DNA from: Chrysoperla carnea
Taxonomy: Eukaryota > Arthropoda > Insecta > Neuroptera > Chrysopidae
Direction of reading: 5' to 3'
Length of the DNA: 64,000 nucleotides
NCBI RefSeq assembly: GCF_905475395.1
Contig: NC_058337.1
Span: 111,408,368 to 111,472,367 of the forward strand
Below are positions 2,930-63,004 of this stretch, piece by piece. Both the position numbers and the translations under genes were made by a program. The notes beneath the pieces were generated by a model, which was given only the letters and a program-made list of their open reading frames with translations, made no database searches and had not been told where the DNA came from. Positions within the stretch are counted from its first letter, which is position 1; each line of letters opens with the position of its first letter.

Positions 2930-7880
<4,951 letters not shown>

Positions 7881-15165: not shown

Positions 15166-17025
15166 TTATACACCTGAATTTTTACGTATCCAATCTCTGA
15201 AACTTGCAACTCGCGTGTAAACGCCTGGATATGGGGGTGTTGTGCATGGTTTAATTGACCATGATACCAAACCAACAACTTTTCCATTCAAAGTCAATGG
15301 ACCACCAGAGTCACCCTAAAAATCATAAATAGTTAAATTTTCACGCTTAACAGGACGACGCGACGTACAAATCTTATGGGAATTGGCTCCCAACTAAATT
15401 AGCTGAATTTTTTTTCCGTTGTTGTTATAAACTTTCTGAATAGATACCTCAATGGATACAAAGAAAAATAACAGTTTTGAAATCCATTTGTTTTTTTAAA
15501 TAAAGAGAATGTGTTGTCTGGAAATAGGGTACTTCTGTCCTACTTTAGGTTTTGTTGAGAACACTCAGACAAACATTTTCCACCCGCTCCCATAACAATC
15601 TACAGCCGAAGAGTTTTTTCCTGGGTTAGGCTGTTTCTTCAGTTTTATTTCCTTGATTAACAACATATCAAAAAACAATCTAGCCAATTCTTATAAGGTA
15701 TATGTGCGTTATCATTTATCAAAAACAAAACTTACATTGCATTGTCCTTTCCATCCTTCTGGAACTCCAGCGCACAAATTACTATTATAAACAGTGTTGT
15801 AATGTATATTTTTGCATTCTTCAATGTCCACAATGGTTATGTTTACTTTTTGTAATCGTTTAGGTAAAATTCCACCACTCTGAAAGGAAATAAATGATTT
15901 TCAGATGAAATTTTTTTTTTACACTCCGTAGATCACTCGAACATCATAATAACAAATTCTAAGATGCTTTCATGATTTCTCAGACTATATTTAAAGTTCA
16001 TAAATATTTTAACTTACAGCAGTGTATCCCCATCCAGCTAAAAGTACGTTGCTTCCTCCTGGTGCAGGTTCATCTTGTTCAGGTAAAACTGCTGGTTGAA
16101 CATTTCCACCAAATACTGCTGGTTCAGCCAACTTTTAAAATTTAATATCGGATTAGTTAATTTCGTATGAATTATAAAAAAGAATTTATATTTTACATAC
16201 TTTTAATAATGCAATGTCATTTTCACTGCCATAATAATTCTCGTGAATAATTTTTGATGCAACATCAATTACTGTTTTATCATTTGCGTTTGGATCGATG
16301 TCCACAACACCATATTGTATAGATTGGGCTCTATATGAAAACAAACAAAATTTTAATAATTGGCTTTTAAATCTAGCTTCGATACTAATATTCTTCTTGA
16401 ATTTTTTAAGCGTAACATGAAATATACTTATTTACAAAACCGCGATGTATTCGAGCAAATATTAGCCTTGTCTAAAATGTAAAATTGTTATTGTTTTTGG
16501 GGACATAACTCTCAACAGCCTACAGGAGATGTGAGCCTCCTTACTTAGATGATTGATTTACAATGATAATTACTGTATTCACAATCTGCTTTGCAAGTAA
16601 ATAGCTTTTAGGGCACAGCAATTATAAATATGAATGTCAAAGTCGGGGATAGTGTAAAAAAAAAAATTAATAATAAATTTCTTACGAAGAAGCACAATGT
16701 CCTGCTGTTAACACGTAATCTTTAGAAATTAAAACTCCACCACAGTTATGACTGCCACCATAACTTCTTAATGAAATCTTTAAAAAAATAATTTTCTCAT
16801 TAGTTAAACAATCAATTTATTCAAATAATACAAGAATACTTACTATTGATGGAACATCTCCTAAATTAGCATCTACTCCCCCTACAACTCTACCTTCAAG
16901 GGATGCCCCTACAAACACAAAAATATAAATTGTTAGTAATACACTTTTGAAAATTATTTTAACTAATTATTAATACCTAAAATTGGCGCAGCCAATGAAA
17001 TTAGAAGTATACAAAATTGAAACAT
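15166..17025 (-). CDS. Secreted chymotrypsin-like S1 serine protease, 7 exons
   Basis: Exons (minus): 17025-16977, 16908-16844, 16777-16686, 16330-16201, 16131-16018, 15879-15736 and 15315-15166. All introns are GT-AG, and joining them gives 247 residues. Residues 1-17 form a signal peptide, followed by a short propeptide ending LEGR. Cleavage after Arg23 would free the mature N-terminus VVGG. The catalytic triad is His65 (TAGHC), Asp107 (NDIALL) and Ser201 (GDSGGP). Six cysteines fit the three conserved disulfides (42-58, 168-182, 191-220, chymotrypsin numbering). Specificity residue 189 is Gly in the context GQCNGDSGG, not the Asp of trypsin, and 226 is Gly. A chymotrypsin-like or broad specificity is inferred. 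Residue 216, usually Gly, is Ser (VSWSIKPC), which may narrow the substrate cleft. A secreted digestive role is likely, but an immune or venom role cannot be excluded. The start is the only ATG preceding the signal peptide. Confidence 0.95.
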
Positions 17026-30596: not shown

Positions 30597-31847
30597 TCAA
30601 TTAAGGACATTTTATTTTGATTGCAATTAGTAAAATTAATGTTTGGTAAAATTTCTCCACAATTATCCCAATAATTTTGGTAACAGATATAAGTAAGCAT
30701 ATGGTTTCCTTAGTTGTATGGCTCCAGAACCCTTATCAAAATATTTTTGTTCAAAATATACAGGCAGAATTTTGAAGAACAGGAGACGGTTTTTCTACTC
30801 CAACTGTGAATAACGAATTCAAACTTTCTATCGTGAAATTTATTTAAAATAATTGAATGTTCTTAAGCACTCCTACACAAATATATTTTTCTTTCTCTAT
30901 CTATTTTCTTCATATTTCTATAAATAATATAAAAACAGACGTTAAGTAAATATGACTATCCGCAAATTTCGCTATGAATTTCAAAGATAATCATAATTTT
31001 CCTTTTCTTTTACTGTGGCCCTTAATGGTTATAATTTGAAAATCAAAAGAAAAAATTCTATAAGTTGAAGAAGTGAAGCAAACAAGTTCATTTATTATAA
31101 ATATTATCAAAGATAATAAATAAGATCTCTAGGATATTTCGAAATAAACTTCGATTTTTGCCTCAATTTCCTAGATCAATATTTTTGTATTATATAAATA
31201 CGTATTTCGACTATCAAGTAGTCATCATCAGTATGATTTATCTAATCATAATAACTTTTATGTTACTTGTTGCTAATTTGGTGGCGGACTGCACTGCATT
31301 TTTTGAAGTGAATGATAATATTACTTATGCGAAAATAACATAACAGTCAAAGTTCTAAGTCGTTATGAAACATGAATAAATTATCTACGGACCTTAAAAG
31401 TGTAGTTCAGTAAATGAAGATGTTCATGTGGGTATGCAGACGACCTCTTCTAGTTCAAATGAAATGCAATTAATTTTAAGAATTTGTATTTTTTCTGTTC
31501 AACACTTGTTTGTTTATTCCATAGCAACATACAAAAATGAAGGTTACATTATTTACATTATCTCGAAATATTTTTACGTTTCGTTATTTCCACCAGTAGA
31601 TACTATGACAATTCAATCAGTTTTGATTTTTAGTTTTTGGCATTAAAACTAGATACAAAGTTATACATTTTTGGAATTATTTGTAACAAGCTAAAAACTC
31701 GGATCATAAACTAGCAGGGATAGTTAAGTCCAACAATACTAGCTTTTAGAGCACACAACATGACCAATTTTTAAATTTTAATAATCTTTCCATTATTTTC
31801 TAGATGAAAAAAAACGAACATTCATTAATTTTAAGGTCATTATCAAC
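30597..31847. other. AT-rich spacer, no gene seen
   Basis: Nothing supported. Confidence 0.4.
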
Positions 31848-32425
31848 AAATGAAACAAAAATTGACTGAGTTAATTGTTGAAATACCATGTATAGACAAT
31901 ATTGATTGCACTATTTTTTCTTTTTTTTGCGTCATGTAAGTAAAGATAGATATTCGGTCTTAGATAGCCCCATATAACTGATATTCCCATATAATACATA
32001 CTATATAATTTGCACCTTATTTGCACCCTCACGAATAAAAAGTGATGTTTACGAAAAAATGTTTCAAACAAAAGTTGTTTATTTTTTTCTAAGGAACATT
32101 TTTTATATCTTTTTGTTCTATCTCTTACAGTTAGAGCTTACGGGCCCAAGCCTGATTTGACTATGCTGCTCATTTACGATTTCAGTCTCACATTTTATGT
32201 CGTGAGCACACTATAAAAATTTCATCTTCATAGTTATCGTGTTCACAGACAGACAGACAGACAGACACGCAGGCAAATATCCGGACGGACATCCGAAAAT
32301 GGGCTTATTAGGTGATTTGATGAACATCTATACGTAATTTTGTTCGTAGTATCAATATTTTTAAGCGTTACAAACTTGGGACTAAACTTAGTGTACCTTG
32401 ATGTATTTTATATATACATGAAATA
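31848..32425 (+). repeat. Dispersed repeat family 1, copy A
   Basis: Shares the family 1 order of blocks: near-palindrome 'attgactgagttaattgt', 'gtgatgtttacgaaaaaatg', 'ctcatttacga', a (CAGA)n tract at 32250-32270, 'aaacttgggactaaactta' and a 'tatacatg' end. No open frame is conserved between copies, so it is a non-coding mobile or formerly mobile unit of unknown class. Confidence 0.85.
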
Positions 32426-33235: not shown

Positions 33236-33687
33236 CTAGAGTGATACCCACCCGCTTCGCTGGGTTTAAAAGTAAAGATTGATAAAGACTGCTCTCGCTT
33301 ATCCTCTTTCTGTAACACTCGATATAGTGGTAAGGATTGTTTTACAAACCTAAAATATATGTACGGTTTTCTATTTTTTAAATGTATAATAGTCGTAATT
33401 ATTCATTGAGTATATCAGAGAAGATGGCCGTGAAATATTTTATATTGACTGTTTTTACAGAAATCTACAATTATCTTATTATGGTATCTAATATCAAATT
33501 AAATTAATTTAAAATTTTTTTTTTTAATTTTTATTAATATATCATTATAAATTATATCTCATGTGTTATTCTGAAGTATGAGCTATGTTGCTGTACAGTT
33601 TCATTAAAAACTATTCGCTCATTTCAGCGTGAAAGCGTAACAAACAAACAAACATGCTTACTTTCGCATTTATAATATATATAGAGA
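33236..33687 (-). mobile_element. Complete non-autonomous Helitron, 452 bp (family H1)
   Basis: Read on the minus strand it begins A|TCTCTATATATATTAT at 33687 and ends TCACTCTAG|T at 33236. The terminal hairpin ACCCAGC-GAA-GCGGGT sits just before the 3' end (about 33249-33264). TC start, CTAG end, subterminal hairpin and A/T insertion are the Helitron hallmarks. The 5' half matches the copy at the left edge of the window. No Rep/helicase is encoded. Short AGAGATAT repeats follow outside the 5' end. Confidence 0.85.
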
Positions 33688-41975: not shown

Positions 41976-42627
41976 CTTTTTATACCATGTATATATGAAA
42001 TATACATAGTATTATAAGTTTAGTCCCAAGTTTGTAACGCCTAAAAATATTGATGCTACAAAAAAAAATTGGTATAGGTGTTCATAAAATCACCTAATTA
42101 ATCCATTTCCGGTTGTCCGTCCGTCCGTCCGTCTGTGGTCACGATTACTCAAAAACGAAAAGAGATATCAAGCTGAAATTTTTACAGCGTGCTTAGGACG
42201 TAAAAAGTGAGGTCAAGTTCGTAAATGAGCAACATGGGTCAATTGGGTCATGGGTCCGTAGTACCCATCTTGTAAACCGTTAGAGATAGAATAAAAGTTT
42301 AAAAGTAAAAAATGTTCCTTACAAAAAAATAAACAACTTTTGTTTGAAACATTTTTTTGTAAACATCACTGTTTACCCACGAGGGCGTTAATTAGGTACA
42401 AATTTTATAGTATATATTAATATAGGAATATCAAAGTGAATATCTTTTGTTATTTACATGACGTCAAAAACAACAAACGATTGCGCATCAACACTTGCGC
42501 ATTATATGAGAATATCAGTTAAATATGTCAGATATGTATGTATGTGAAATGTGACAGAGTTATCAACACTGCCTATACATGGTATTTCAACAATTAACTC
42601 AGTCAATTGTTTGTTTTCACTTGTTTC
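41976..42627 (-). repeat. Dispersed repeat family 1, copy B
   Basis: Inverted relative to copy A and among the longer copies. It has the block order 'tttagtcccaagtttgtaac', 'ggtgttcataaaatcac', (GTCC)n at 42116-42133, 'aggacgtaaaaagtgagg', 'aaacatcactgtttac' and 'tgacgtcaaaaacaacaaac', and ends in the near-palindrome 'acaattaactcagtcaattg'. The TGACGTCA-bearing segment is shared in full with copy G only, so these two form a subfamily. Confidence 0.85.
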
Positions 42628-43012: not shown

Positions 43013-43324
43013 TTTGCAATCAGTGGTATTGAAATTTTAAAAGAATCTTTAAATACTTGTATAAGTTAAATAGAAACAATGAGCCATTATGATAATTATT
43101 GTGAATGTAGAGTATGGTTCACATTCGAAGTCATGAACTACTTTCTGCTGACATTTGGATAAAATTTTATCGAATATTAGAAATACGAGACGGGCTACTT
43201 TATTCTCTTCAATTTTGATTCCGAATAAAAACTTCCTTCAATTTTAATTCCTCGTCATTTTTAATCATTTCCAGCATATATTATTGCGTAGATTTTCAGC
43301 GATTGGCCAACTTTGCTTTATGTG

Positions 43325-43884
43325 ATAACAAACAATTGACTGAGTTAATTGTTGAAATACCATGCATAAACAGTGTTGATTACTCTATCACATTACACAT
43401 ACATACATGTCACACATATATAACTAATATAACTGATATTTCCTTATAATACATACTATACAATTTACGCATAATTTGCACACTCACGGGTAAACAGTGA
43501 TGTTTACGAAAAAATGTATCAAACAAAAATTGTTTTGTTTCTTTTAGGGAACATTTAAACTTTTATTCTATCTCTAACGGTTCACAAGATGGATCCTGCG
43601 GACCAAAGATCCAATTGACCTATGTTTCTCATTTACGAACTCGACCTCACTTCTTACGTCCTGAGTACGCTGTAAAAATTTCATCTAGATATATCTTTTC
43701 GGTTTGAGTTATCGCGTTGGCAGACAGACAGACAGTCGGGCAGACAACCGGAAATGGACTAATTAGGTGATTCTATGAACACCTATACCAAAATTTTTTT
43801 CGTAGTATCAATATTTTTAAGCGTTACAAACTTGGGACTAAACTTAGTATACCTTGCATATTACATATATACATGGTATAAAAA
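43325..43884 (+). repeat. Dispersed repeat family 1, copy C
   Basis: Complete block order, from 'aacaattgactgagttaatt' to 'acatggtataaaaat', with a CAGA tract at 43721-43734. Short open frames beyond its right end are not genes. Confidence 0.85.
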
Positions 43885-44328
43885 TTAATATGCGATGTAT
43901 AGAAGAATACTACTTTTCCGTAGTGTGCTTGGATTTCCCAAACTATTTCGTAAACGAAAATTACGGACCAAAGCTAAAAGTTTTTTCGACCTTGACAACT
44001 TTCCCATACATATATGCATACGTCTATGGCACTGAAAATGACGAGATATGTATGTAGTATTTACTATATTAAAGCTATTTATTCTATATTCGTATTTATG
44101 TGAAGACAAGTTTAAAGTTATAAAAAGATATTTTTTTAAATATATGTAACAAAAACATTAAAAAAGAACAAGTTCTATAAAAAAAAAGTTTTATATATTT
44201 ACATATTACAAAGATATACACTATTTATATGCTGTGATCTAGTTAGGTTGTTGAAATAAGAAAAACGCTAGTAATATTACCGTAGTACATTTGGTAAACC
44301 ATAATCTAAATAAATAATAGTTTAAAAA

Positions 44329-46540: not shown

Positions 46541-47133
46541 CTCATTTAAACAATTGACTGAGTTAATCGTTGAAATACCATGTATAGTAGTTTTGACTAC
46601 GCAATTGTTTGTTTTTTACTTCATGTAAGTAAAAGAAGAAAGCCACTCTTATACACAAAGTAATAATAGTATCTTTTACTTCCTCAGTGGATATAGTATA
46701 TGCTATACATAAACAAACACATATATAATATATGTAACATATAAATTTAAAATATATACAATGATAATCTATCTAAACTAATTTGCGCCTTCGGGGGTAA
46801 AAAGTGATGTTTACGAAAAAATATTTCAAACAAAGTAGTTTATTTTCTTATAGGGAGCATTTTTTACATTTCAACTTTTCTTCTATGTCTAACGGTTTAC
46901 AAGACTTAATTGACCTATGTTGCTCATTTACGAACTCGACTTCACTTTTTACGTCCTAAGCACGCTATGGCATTTTCAGTTTGAAACATTTTTTCGTTTT
47001 TGAGTTATCGTGTTGATAGACAGTCAGACAACCAGAAAAGGACTAATTACGTGATTTTATGAACACTTATTTTTAAGCTTTACAAACTTGCGACTAAATT
47101 TAGTATACCTTGATACATACATGGTATAAAAAT
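46541..47133 (+). repeat. Dispersed repeat family 1, copy D
   Basis: Diverged copy. The block order is retained, but the CAGA tract is reduced to 'agacagtcagaca', and part of the 'gatgctacg' region near the right end is deleted. Confidence 0.8.
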
Positions 47134-48159
47134 GAATTAAATGAACAATGATAATTACATACTCGCTTTTTTTCTTCTACAATTTACTCCTACAGCAATG
47201 TCCGTCTTTTCCTTATAAAACGGGGTTTCATATGAATTTGTTGTAGTAATTTTCAAAAGTGAATCATTTTAAAAAATTTCAAAAACTAACTACACTATGC
47301 TGTACGTGAAGCAATTCTTCCTCTTTCATCATTTTTATGTTCGCTGTTGTAAAAATAAAACGTTCGAAGTTTTTGACAATTTTCAAACTTTATATATTTT
47401 GGAAAATGAACGTAATTATTTCTGTAAATATTCTAATAAATAAATAGTCAGATGAAAAATTCTAAAAGTAAAGTTTATTAACTATAATATTGTTTATTTT
47501 TGAAAGCTTCAGCTTCGTTTTTTTAATCAATAAAATTATATATACATTCACATAAAATAAAATATGCACAGTATAATATTAATTTAAAGGCAATAGAACT
47601 TTCATGACTACATTAAAAGCTTTTTATTTATTTTATTTCATACTTAGATATATAAGGTAATATCATTAATAATAATTAAACATCATATTGTATCTTACAA
47701 ATAATATTGATTTAGTCATATTATAAAGGTAGTTGTACGTAATATCAAGGTCATTTTGATCATTTCTGATCAATTTATCTTCCTTACTAGATTAAAATCT
47801 ATAGGGACTATTTAATTTATAGACTATTAAGTTTATCTATGGAGTGTTCTGTACGAGTATAAATCTCGTTTGAAATTCATCACAGAGGAACAAGTACTGT
47901 GAACAAATTTAATAAGTTCAAGTATACTATTTACTATTTGTGAAGTTTTTGAGATTGTAGTCCAGAGATCGAAATATACATTTACGTGCGTTTAAAGCCA
48001 TTTTTGAAATATAAGCACTGTTATTCCTACGAAAGATCATTAAGTACCATATGAATTCCTGTCGGTGTGTCATTTCAAAATTTACTTCCTCAACTGGGGA
48101 ATAATAACCATCAAAAAGCAATGATTTACTCGTTTTGAATTCTAAAACAAGTGAAACTT
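47134..48159. other. AT-rich spacer, no gene seen
   Basis: No supported gene or repeat. Confidence 0.4.
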
Positions 48160-48710: not shown

Positions 48711-49346
48711 TCTATATATATATATAGAAAAAGAGTGTTTGTTTGTATGTCCCCGATTTTCCCTAAAACTAACCATTGACCTTCGGTAGGGGATTATGTC
48801 ATTGGGTAGCCCTTAGGCTCCCATTGTGAATAAGGGAGTTTGGTGGGGGTGGAATTAAAAATGATCTAGAAATTCATAGAAAATAGATTAAAAAAATAGT
48901 TCTAATAGTACAATAGGCCCCACTGTCAATAGTACAATTTTCACTAGATGGCGCTACTGGCGCAAATGTCTTTCGATTTTTCTCGAAAATTCTGGAATGT
49001 TCCATGGGTTTCTGTCGAATTTTCTAGAATTTTCTCGAACATTCTGGAATGTTCTATGGATTTCTATCGAATTTTCTAGAATTTTCTCGAACATTCTGGA
49101 ATGTTTTATGGATTTCTATCGAATTTTCTAGAACTTTCTCGAATATTCTGGAATGTTCCATGGGTTTCTATCGATCTTTCCCTTACTTTTCCGTACACAC
49201 AGAGAGTGTAGACATAATATTGGGATCGGACAAAAAAATCTTACTGTTCCGTACACACAGAGAGAATTAAAAAAAAAGTCTTTCATTTAACAATTTTGAT
49301 ATTTAAATGTGCAAAAACAACCCAGCGAAGCGGGTTTAACAGCTAG
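48711..49346 (+). mobile_element. Non-autonomous Helitron, 636 bp, carrying a heat-shock-element array (family H2)
   Basis: Host A at 48710 precedes the 5' TC of TCTATATATATATATAG. The 3' end is CTAG (49343-49346) before host T. The stem AACCC-a-GC, loop GAA and GC-GGGTT lie at 49319-49336, ten bases upstream of the end. This hairpin is nearly identical to the one of the Helitron at 33236, although the bodies differ. The interior holds 'gtccccgattttccctaaa', a 3.5-copy 52-bp minisatellite and a duplicated 'ttccgtacacacagagag' (about 49187 and 49247). No protein is encoded; it must depend on a helicase supplied elsewhere. Confidence 0.88.
48980..49158. promoter_or_regulatory. Array of perfect heat-shock elements in a 52-bp tandem repeat
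   Basis: Heat-shock factor binds alternating TTC and GAA triplets spaced by two bases. Here such triplets run without a spacing error in four blocks: 48980-49002 (5 triplets), 49017-49054 (8), 49069-49101 (7) and 49121-49158 (8), 28 in all. The core units are TTCTAGAA, TTCTCGAA and TTCTGGAATGTTC. The repeat period is 52 bp (copies start at 48991, 49043, 49095 and 49147). The only lost triplet is TTC to TTT at about 49104. Binding is predicted from the consensus, not shown. Confidence 0.8.
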
Positions 49347-55460: not shown

Positions 55461-56032
55461 AAACAAGTGAAAACAAACAATTGTCTGAGTTAATTGAAAT
55501 ACCATGCATACACAGTGTTGATTACTCTATCACATAACAAGTCCATACATGTCACACATACATAACTGATATTCCCATATAATAAATACCATAATAAAAT
55601 TTACGCCTAATTTGCGCCCTCACTTGTAAAAAATGATGTTTATGAAAAAATGTTTCAACAAAAGTTGGTTATTTTTTATATTTATACTTTTGTTCTATCT
55701 CTCATGGTTTACAAGATGGGTCCTACTGGACCCAAGACCCAATTAACCTATATTGCTCATTTACGAACTCGACCTCATTTTTTACGTCCTGAGTGAGCTG
55801 TAAAAATTTCAGCTTGATATCTTTTTTCGTTTTTGAGTGATCGTGCCCACAGGCGGACGGACGGACGGACGGGCAGACGGACAACCGGAAATGGACTAAT
55901 TAGGTGATTTTATGAACACCTTTACCAAAATTTTGTTCGTAGCATCAATATTATTAAGCATTACAAACTTGGGACTAAACTTAGTATACCTTGCATATAT
56001 ACATATATTACATATATGCATGGTATAAAAAT
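55461..56032 (+). repeat. Dispersed repeat family 1, copy E
   Basis: Full block order from 'aaacaagtgaaaacaaacaa' to 'gcatggtataaaaat', with a GGAC tract at 55853-55870. Confidence 0.85.
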
Positions 56033-57671: not shown

Positions 57672-58182
57672 TTTTTTTATAGGTGTTCATAAAATCACCT
57701 AATTAATCCATTTTCGATTGTCTGTCTGCCTGTCCGCCTGACAACACGATAACTCAAAACGAGAAAACATTTGAAATTTTATAGCGTGCTCAGGACGTAA
57801 AAAGTGAGGTCGAATTCGTAAATGATCAATATTGGTCAATTGGGTCTTATGTCCGTAGGACCTATCTTGTAATTGTAAACCCTTAGAGATAGAACAAAAG
57901 TTTAAGTATAAGAAATGTTCCTTATAAAAAAATTAATAACTTTTGTTTGAAACATTTTTTTCAAAAACATCACTGTTTACCCGTGAGCAAATTAGGTTCG
58001 AATATTGTATACTATGTATTTATATGGGAATAATAGTCTTGTGTGTGTGACATGTATGTATGGCTAGCTATCTCTCTTTACTTACATGACGTGAAAAAAT
58101 AAACGACTCCGTAATCAATACTATCTATCTATACATGTTATTTTAACAATTGACTCAGTCAATTGTTTGTTTTCACTTGTTT
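57672..58182 (-). repeat. Dispersed repeat family 1, copy F (truncated)
   Basis: Lacks the 'ataccatg...tttagtcccaag' end and starts at 'ataggtgttcataaaatcac'. The rest of the block order is complete to 'cagtcaattgtttgttttc'. Confidence 0.8.
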
Positions 58183-59077
58183 AACATAAATTTAAAACGG
58201 ATTCGAAATATATCAACTGTTTAGTTTGTCTCGCCTTAAAATAGCTAAAAATCCTGACGCCGTTTATCAGTTTTGTATCTGTTATCAATTTGCGTTCCAA
58301 AAGAATAATTGTAAAATCGTCATTTTTCGAAATAAACGTGTTCGAGAACTTTACACAGCCCTAAAAACTTCCGAAACTCTTGGTTTATCAAATGACATAA
58401 GACATTATTTTTCTTAAAATTAGATATAATTTACACTATGTTAAGAAAAAACAAGTTCTCGGAATGCACCAAATCAAATGTTAAAAGGCACTGGCCTTAT
58501 ACAATGGATAAACCTGTTATTTCTGGGACTCAAATATGAATCATTATTACAATATTAGAACTCATAAATTATGCATTTAATAAAAAAAAATTAATAAAAC
58601 ATAAAAATAAAACAATTAATTATTTTAATTTTATACAAGATATAATTTTTATAATAATAAGTTATTATATCGTATGCTTTTATAAATAAAAAAATATTGC
58701 AATCAATAATAGTTATTGTTTTAATTTCTTTTTCAACACATGATTGATAATGACATTAAAAAAGTGTAAATGATAATTCTGTTCAATTATCCTTGAACTG
58801 TAACTGCAACAAAGTGCAAACAATTTTTTTTTTTAAATTACCAATTTAATGTATTTGTTTCATTTTATTCAACAATTTTTTGTTTGATTCGGATTTATTT
58901 TTAAATAGTTTGTTAATTTTGATATGAAGCAATTAAAATATTATCATATTCAACTTTATTGAATAAAAATAAAATTCTTATTCGTACATAATTTCAATTT
59001 TGAAATTAATATCAAAAATATTTAATTAAAGGTATGCAAAAAATACATATTTTTAATTTGTGATAACTATGAAAATT
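58183..59077. other. AT-rich spacer, no gene seen
   Basis: The frame at 58226-58417 has somewhat coding-like composition but no start context, family or splice support; not called. Confidence 0.35.
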
Positions 59078-61991: not shown

Positions 61992-62672
61992 TTTTTATAC
62001 CATGTTATGAAATATACATAGTATATTAAATTTCGTCCCAAGTTTGTAACGCTTAAAAATATTGATGCTACGAAAAAAATTTTGGTATAGGTGTTCATAG
62101 AATCACCTAATTAATCCATTTCCGGTTGTCCGTCCGTCCGTCTGTGGACACGATAACTCAAAAACGAAAAAAGATATCGAGCTGAAATTTTTACAGCGAA
62201 CTCAAGACGTAAAAAGTGAGGTCAAGTTCGTAAATGAGCATCATAGGTGAATTGGGTCTTGGGTCCGTAGGACCCATCTTGTAAACCGTTAGAGATAAAA
62301 CAAAAGTTTAAATGGAAAAATGTTCCTTATAAAAAAATAAAAAACTTTTGTTTGAAGCATTTTTTTGTAAACATCACTGTTTACCCACGAGGGCGTTAAT
62401 TAGGTGCAAATTTTATAGTATGTATTAATATAGGAATATCAGTTGTGTGTGTGTGTGTGTATTTAAAAGTGAATATCTTTTGTTATTTACGTGACGTCAA
62501 AAAAACAAACGATTGCGCATCAACACTATGTAATATAGTACCTATGTATTAATATGGGATTATCAGTTATATATGTGTGACATGTATGTTTGTGTAATGT
62601 GACAGAGTAATCAACACTGTCTATACATGGTATTTCAACAATTAACTCAGTCAATTGTTTGTTTTCACTTGT
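61992..62672 (-). repeat. Dispersed repeat family 1, copy G (long form)
   Basis: The longest copy, 681 bp. It matches copy B over its whole length, including the TGACGTCA segment, and adds a (GT)n tract at 62443-62460 and a duplicate of the 'taatatgggattatcagtt' stretch. Confidence 0.88.
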
Positions 62673-63004
62673 TAATAATTTTAGTTGTCATTTTAAAGTG
62701 GTTTAATACATTATATATTAAACATTTTGATAAATCAAAAAAGTGCACACTAATGATGCATTTAAAAATTAAATAGTAAAGTGTTTAGTATTTACAGATT
62801 AATGTAATAAATAAATAAGTTATAATTATTGAAATCCTTTTAAAAGCAAACTTAAAGCATTCAAACATTAGATATAATAAATATTGTAATATAATAATTT
62901 TATAACTGCATCAAATATAAAATATTATAAATAATATTGGCTTATATCCAATAAATTATGTTATTTTAGTATATTTTATAATATACTTAGTTTAAACTAA
63001 TATT
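62673..63004. other. AT-rich spacer, no gene seen
   Basis: Nothing supported. Confidence 0.4.

Follow-up and report, generated by a model that had tools for sequence, protein, structure and literature searches.

A young Helitron family carrying arrays of predicted heat-shock elements in Chrysoperla carnea, and a candidate autonomous partner

The closest described systems are the Caenorhabditis Helitrons Helitron1_CE, Helitron2_CE and Helitron7_CB, which carry heat-shock elements (HSEs) (Garrigues 2019, PMC6927752; Schreiner 2019, PMC6765114). As far as the available text of these papers goes, C. elegans Helitron1_CE is bound by HSF-1 and its RNA is heat-induced in an HSF-1-dependent manner (PMC6927752, PMC6765114), and the worm elements hold 14 and 85 HSEs upstream of the Rep-helicase gene (PMC6927752). 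Among the UCSC genomes with annotated Helitrons, the same text reports HSE enrichment only in three Caenorhabditis species, and its authors consider that the phenomenon may be restricted to Caenorhabditis (PMC6927752). Transposon rewiring of an animal heat-shock response was thus thought possibly confined to this genus, and among the matches listed in the literature, mostly non-subscription, we recognised no HSE-bearing Helitron from a non-nematode animal.

The window (the whole 64-kb stretch of C. carnea DNA analysed here) contains a repeat that the preliminary description had read as a Helitron-borne array of HSEs, with 28 TTC/GAA triplets in exact alternation in blocks of 5, 8, 7 and 8 and a 52-bp tandem unit. 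A scan of the window for strictly alternating TTC/GAA triplets at 2-base spacing agreed exactly, returning 28 triplets in four chains of these lengths, and Tandem Repeats Finder likewise reported a period of 52 bp with 3.8 units, along with a 10-bp period. The components of the array are as follows.

48980..49002, no strand assigned: HSE chain of 5 perfect triplets (chain scan)
49017..49054, no strand assigned: HSE chain of 8 perfect triplets (chain scan)
49069..49101, no strand assigned: HSE chain of 7 perfect triplets, the eighth being TTT rather than TTC (chain scan and sequence)
49121..49158, no strand assigned: HSE chain of 8 perfect triplets (chain scan)
48978..49174, + strand: 52-bp minisatellite (Tandem Repeats Finder: period 52, 3.8 copies, 93% matches)

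Outside the array, the window holds just one chain of at least three triplets, a chain of four at 4826. As a null we used 100 simulated 64-kb sequences (order-2 Markov), which yielded 102 chains of three, two of four and none longer. The 28 triplets are not independent, there being about eight per unit and the units having been copied from each other; since triplets of different units are mutual copies, the independent observation is one unit with its 8-chain, and a single 8-chain alone surpasses this null. By its pattern, the window repeat is an HSE array, and its triplets are predicted HSF sites.

Helitrons insert between A and T. The canonical element has a 5′ TC, a 3′ CTRR and a palindrome of 16–20 bp near the 3′ end (available text of PMC6544945), and the carrier of the array has a 5′ TC, a 3′ CTAG, a near-3′ palindrome and an A/T insertion site.

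48711..49346, + strand: non-autonomous Helitron of 636 bp, lying between A (48710) and T (49347) (sequence and genome copies)
48711..48749, + strand: Helitron 5′ terminus TCTATATATATA...GAGTGTTTGTTTGTATG, with the TC start at 48711 (sequence)
49319..49337, + strand: subterminal palindrome AACCCAGCGAAGCGGGTT, the Helitron 3′ hairpin (sequence)
49343..49346, + strand: Helitron 3′ end CTAG, followed by host T (sequence)

Across 49 copies read from the genome, the base 5′ of TC is A in 43 of the 45 that are readable there, and the base 3′ of CTAG is T in all 46 readable cases. The arrangement TC...palindrome...CTAG with A/T flanks recurs across these genome copies, so the earlier assignment of the carrier to the Helitrons holds. 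The palindrome itself is thermodynamically weak (46 of 200 shuffles fold equally well; z −0.63). No TATA box was seen beside the array of the non-autonomous element, so the array is more likely to be an enhancer or opener than a promoter.

The window has other repeats and at least one likely gene. A second Helitron-like element lies at approximately 33236–33683 (− strand), with a different body, a similar 3′ palindrome (AACCCAGCGAAGCGGGT...CTAG followed by T) and no HSE chain, and positions 1–220 (− strand) are a copy of its 5′ part. One interspersed repeat of approximately 0.5–0.7 kb occupies seven places (31839–32420, 41977–42625, 43322–43885, 46548–47139, 55467–56032, 57672–58197 and 61992–62673); of 13 genome stretches sampled, six also contain it, one of the copies at 98% identity. 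Positions 15169–16966 (− strand) contain likely exons of a trypsin-like serine protease, the last of which matches trypsins/kallikreins, the others having been assigned by eye.

The genome searched comprises 559,487,470 bases in 337 contigs, six of them large; the window is 28% G+C. Searching with the whole element gave 322 first-look candidates and 40 scored places (55 match rows joined by hand) with row identities of 83 to 100%, and a script recognised both Helitron ends in 36 of the 40. The 49 copies consist of these 40, which include the window copy, and nine found by the six-chain pattern in the first 7.2 Mb of contig 1, all nine of which align to the element and carry its 3′ end. Every one of the 49 keeps a chain of six or more triplets, with a median of 29 triplets in chains (range 11–63), although array-less copies would be missed, as 40 copies were found by whole-element likeness and nine by the six-chain pattern. 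The perfect six-triplet pattern occurs at 1916 sites in the genome, against none for a reversed-pattern control. When the spacer bases of the family are added to the pattern, 919 + 933 = 1852 sites are retained (control 0), and 97% of the perfect six-triplet sites in the genome therefore bear the stamp of the array-bearing Helitron family. The HSE clusters, identified by pattern, are dense and perfect, lie within Helitrons and are enriched over the genome. The array-bearing family is young.

The preliminary description had named equal decay rates of triplets and other positions as an observation that would speak against its reading, and this is how the array units behave after insertion. Substitutions were classified in 26 of the 40 copies, which belong to three length classes, disregarding the first 40 bases of each element. 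In the 632-bp class (13 copies), private substitutions per base amounted to 1.51% in triplets, 0.62% in spacers, 1.28% between blocks, 1.03% in the 5′ part and 0.57% in the 3′ part. The corresponding values in the 788-bp class (10 copies) were 0.38, 0.40, 0.31, 0.31 and 0.70%, and in the 736-bp class (3 copies) 1.23, 3.23, 0.88, 0.44 and 0.18%; in this last class the triplets changed less than the spacers, but the three copies provide few events. The 40 copies contain 203 array units, with 3 to 10 full units per copy, falling into 55 kinds of which 46 are private. When units within three changes of a common kind were compared, private units showed 29 differences among the 24 triplet positions and as many among the 28 others (P 0.60). 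In the larger samples, triplets thus decay after insertion like the other bases, and individual copies are not kept up as HSEs. This speaks against post-insertion maintenance for the host, and not against use by the active element.

Variants shared between copies bear on the active lineage. Those present in at least two copies of the 13-copy class amount to 0.80% in triplets, 3.41% in spacers, 3.30% between blocks, 0.17% in the 5′ part and 0.08% in the 3′ part. The six unit kinds common to at least three copies differ from one another at 8 triplet positions and 10 others, which speaks against constraint in the active lineage. If three aberrant kinds are set aside (28 copies have the 5′ boundary unit, three have its variant and 18 have a degenerate unit), the count drops to 1 triplet and 7 other positions, and the remaining common kinds, together with the shared variants, speak weakly for such constraint. 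The degenerate unit, which has several broken triplets, has been copied to 18 of the 40 elements (as in L063–L065 and in the 788-bp class, where it lies mid-array), a point against the HSF reading; array units are therefore mobile and swapped as whole blocks.

The preliminary description had offered as an alternative that the transposon exploits the heat-shock factor of its host to have itself transcribed. This idea gains support from an autonomous Helitron of the same genome (genome stretch L091), in which a putative HSE and TATA box precede the Rep-helicase gene.

L091:1219-6535: autonomous Helitron, TC...CTAG between A and T (sequence)
L091:2030-6412: Rep-helicase open reading frame, 1460 aa, intact, with domains Helitron_like_N, PIF1 and Pif1 2B
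L091:1553-1570: leader HSE, a chain of four perfect triplets, the same in the second copy, L092; with an imperfect fifth triplet, GAG, the site reads GAAatTTCtcGAAtaTTCtaGAG
L091:1590-1597: TATA box TATATAAG, 19 bp 3′ of the HSE, which is itself approximately 460 bp 5′ of the open reading frame

The second copy, L092, is 99.9% identical to L091 over 5323 bp. GAGAGAG and CTCTCT stretches lie near the leader HSE, and all of these promoter parts (HSE, TATA box and GAGAGAG/CTCTCT) were assigned by eye. The leader HSE is the sole chain of at least three triplets in each of the two 8-kb stretches, L091 and L092. With a background of one chain of at least four per 185,300 bases, 0.004 would be expected in the 812-bp leader, a figure to be read with the fact that the leader was examined after the chain had been noticed. 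No chain of at least three was present in the 8-kb stretches around three other Rep-helicases (L093–L095), and the frame starts of L093 and L094 (windows of 1.5 and 1.4 kb) had no chain at 11 of 12 bases. The family of L091 and L092 has nine places in the genome with open frames of at least 1462 aa, with the leader matched near each. A 301-bp piece of the leader (L091:1530-1830) gave 23 match rows in the genome, of which 15 are at a rounded 100% over the whole length, and the autonomous family has therefore moved very recently; 15 of the 23 rows fall within approximately 2 kb of a Helitron_like_N match.

Helitron_like_N itself gave 64 match rows in the genome, some of them pieces of one element, and 35 of the 64 are on C6, which with 39 of the 559 Mb is the shortest of the six large ones among the contigs. 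This crowding hints at a special chromosome or heterochromatin. On another contig (G000 C3:3767553-3809834), seven matches lie in one orientation, with frames of 388–721 aa and five of the six steps measuring approximately 5.8 kb; the stretch is a tandem array of a predicted Rep-helicase unit, and L095 is one stretch of it.

The termini offer a comparison between the autonomous and array-bearing elements. L091 and the non-autonomous element share their first 12 bases; their last 29 agree at 25, in an alignment with four gapped columns. Against 20 shuffles of each, the 3′ terminus match scored 27 (shuffled maxima 26 and 25), whereas the 5′ match scored 28 and was not above shuffles (maxima 28 and 31). 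The L093 family has a similar 3′ palindrome, with a score of 24 against a shuffled maximum of 24. Of the four kinds of termini compared (L091/L092, L093, L094 and L095), those of L091 are the closest, the 3′ end barely above shuffles and the 5′ end not. The termini thus appear to resemble those of the array-bearing element only weakly above chance, and it is on the termini that we regard L091 as a probable relative and a candidate partner. The array might descend from the leader HSE; an array unit and this HSE agree at 20 of 23 bases, a likeness that 8% of chance trials also reach.

On the host side, the HSF DNA-binding domain has one match in the genome, with its recognition helix intact. The exon concerned encodes 38 residues, including NMASFVRQLNM, whose best match among solved structures is Drosophila HSF (E 8.3e-11). 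Matches to HSF, eIF4G and trypsin suit an animal without telling insect from nematode, and in nine of the sequence sources Rfam gave nothing at its gathering score. The host Hsp70 genes are single open frames of approximately 650 aa; three divergent pairs account for six of them, and one lies approximately 1 Mb from the window. Three Hsp70 promoter stretches were sampled; each has TATATAAG, and their longest perfect chains are of 3, 0 and 3 triplets, so that perfect chains are far longer in the Helitron arrays than in these three promoters. We also considered whether the leader is a captured present-day Hsp70 promoter. This was not supported, with none of the 23 leader rows at places on the Hsp70 list, and BLAST of the leader against the three promoter stretches found nothing better than E 0.019.

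Taking these observations together, we think it somewhat probable that the window element belongs, as its non-autonomous branch, to a Helitron population that was active recently and is wired to the heat-shock factor of the host. The best reading of the sequences is of a Helitron lineage that would have recruited HSF for its own transcription, in parallel to Caenorhabditis, and we favour a transposon acting for itself over benefit to the host. Under heat stress, binding of HSF to the autonomous leader would switch on the Rep-helicase, which could then mobilise both autonomous and non-autonomous elements. Slippage or copying may have expanded an HSE-bearing stretch into the 52-bp higher-order repeat, and the arrays in non-autonomous copies would bind HSF at the same time as the leader. 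Loaded with HSF, each array could serve as an enhancer or as a site of open chromatin, which might expose the element while the Rep-helicase is made; for neighbouring host genes, any consequences would be incidental. We advance more tentatively, as something that could well be wrong, the fuller proposal that a lineage outside nematodes independently made its transposase gene a heat-shock gene, with an HSE by TATATAAG as in host Hsp70 promoters, while its non-autonomous branch amplified HSEs to as many as 63 triplets, leaving a young family that supplies nearly all long HSF sites in the genome and is able to sink or spread the heat-shock response.

The chief rival is that the array is a passive minisatellite, a palindromic repeat of approximately 10 bp grown by slippage within a Helitron, in which the HSE pattern is incidental and HSF binding irrelevant. 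We regard this as unlikely, though it deserves to be taken seriously. The 10-bp period reported by Tandem Repeats Finder fits it, and such chains do arise without HSF, since 8-chains are present in 11 bacterial or archaeal contigs, eight being exact 10-bp repeats and three nearly so. In a viral collection, the five-triplet pattern occurs in 18 contigs and the eight-triplet pattern in three, two of which share one chain; contig L007 of this collection holds a ten-triplet chain with varied spacers, which also fits a passive origin. The viral contigs gave no matches to the 3′ end of the array-bearing Helitron, and the Rep-helicase had no relative there. Private decay, no slower in triplets in the two larger length classes and in private units, points the same way as the bacterial chains, as does the variation of the six common unit kinds at both triplet and other positions (8 and 10). 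However, once the aberrant kinds are set aside it is the spacers that vary while the triplets stay (7 other positions against 1 triplet), shared variants in the 13-copy class are likewise rarer in triplets than in spacers (0.80 against 3.41%), and a passive repeat does not predict an HSE and TATA box before the autonomous Rep-helicase gene. This leader is equally unexplained by a purely structural role, in which the self-complementary array would fold as single-stranded DNA during rolling-circle transfer and aid or stop copying, its likeness to HSEs following from the palindrome. The array does fold far better than shuffles (z about −8; RNA parameters, 100 shuffles), but any TTC/GAA palindrome array would do likewise, and the array length is not fixed, as copies hold anything from 3 to 10 full units; we consider this role very improbable.

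Two further explanations were considered. The device might go back to one ancestor with that of the Caenorhabditis Helitrons, through horizontal transfer or ancient vertical inheritance, rather than having an independent origin. The device is alike in both, and Helitrons move between species (available text of PMC4344730), but among solved structures, which may include no nematode HSF, the host exon most resembles Drosophila HSF, and we judge shared ancestry improbable. Alternatively, the arrays might be heat-shock enhancers domesticated by the host and kept by selection at particular genes, for which there is precedent near single genes in C. elegans (available text of PMC6927752 and PMC12062965). 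To this we give hardly any credence: the private triplet rate is not lower in the 23 copies of two length classes, the lower rate in the third (three copies; triplets 1.23%, spacers 3.23%) is a difference of few events, private units show no triplet difference, and the family is too young for single loci to be judged.

The DNA thus shows a real and young HSE-array Helitron, with an autonomous relative that is plausibly HSF-wired. If this wiring is true, it would be a second, very young case, making HSF recruitment a repeatable Helitron strategy; the element may be driven by heat stress, which could also rewire genes in its vicinity. The near-identical autonomous copies would permit a direct test of whether heat drives Helitron movement, and the family would permit testing whether strong HSF sites in such numbers, in the hundreds, titrate the factor or recruit genes.

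Other mobile elements offer partial parallels. ONSEN, a copia retrotransposon of Arabidopsis, is transcribed on heat and passes its heat response to neighbours (available text of PMC6927752), but differs in being a plant retrotransposon. DINE-1 and the oyster Helentrons are likewise short, non-autonomous rolling-circle elements, and those of the oyster carry satellite-like arrays (PMC4067079, PMC7492417); compared by description only, their repeats are not called HSEs in the available text of these descriptions. For the Caenorhabditis Helitrons, HSF binding and heat induction are established, whereas for the present elements they are predicted from sequence. They further differ from the worm elements in their setting, a 559-Mb genome with a window of 28% G+C, in the contribution of one 52-bp unit of a short non-autonomous family, which accounts for 97% of perfect six-triplet sites, and in having one 4-chain in the leader of L091 and L092 in place of 14 and 85 HSEs. 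What the two have in common is dense HSE clusters inside Helitrons, predicted HSEs upstream of a Rep-helicase gene and a large share of the HSEs of the genome.
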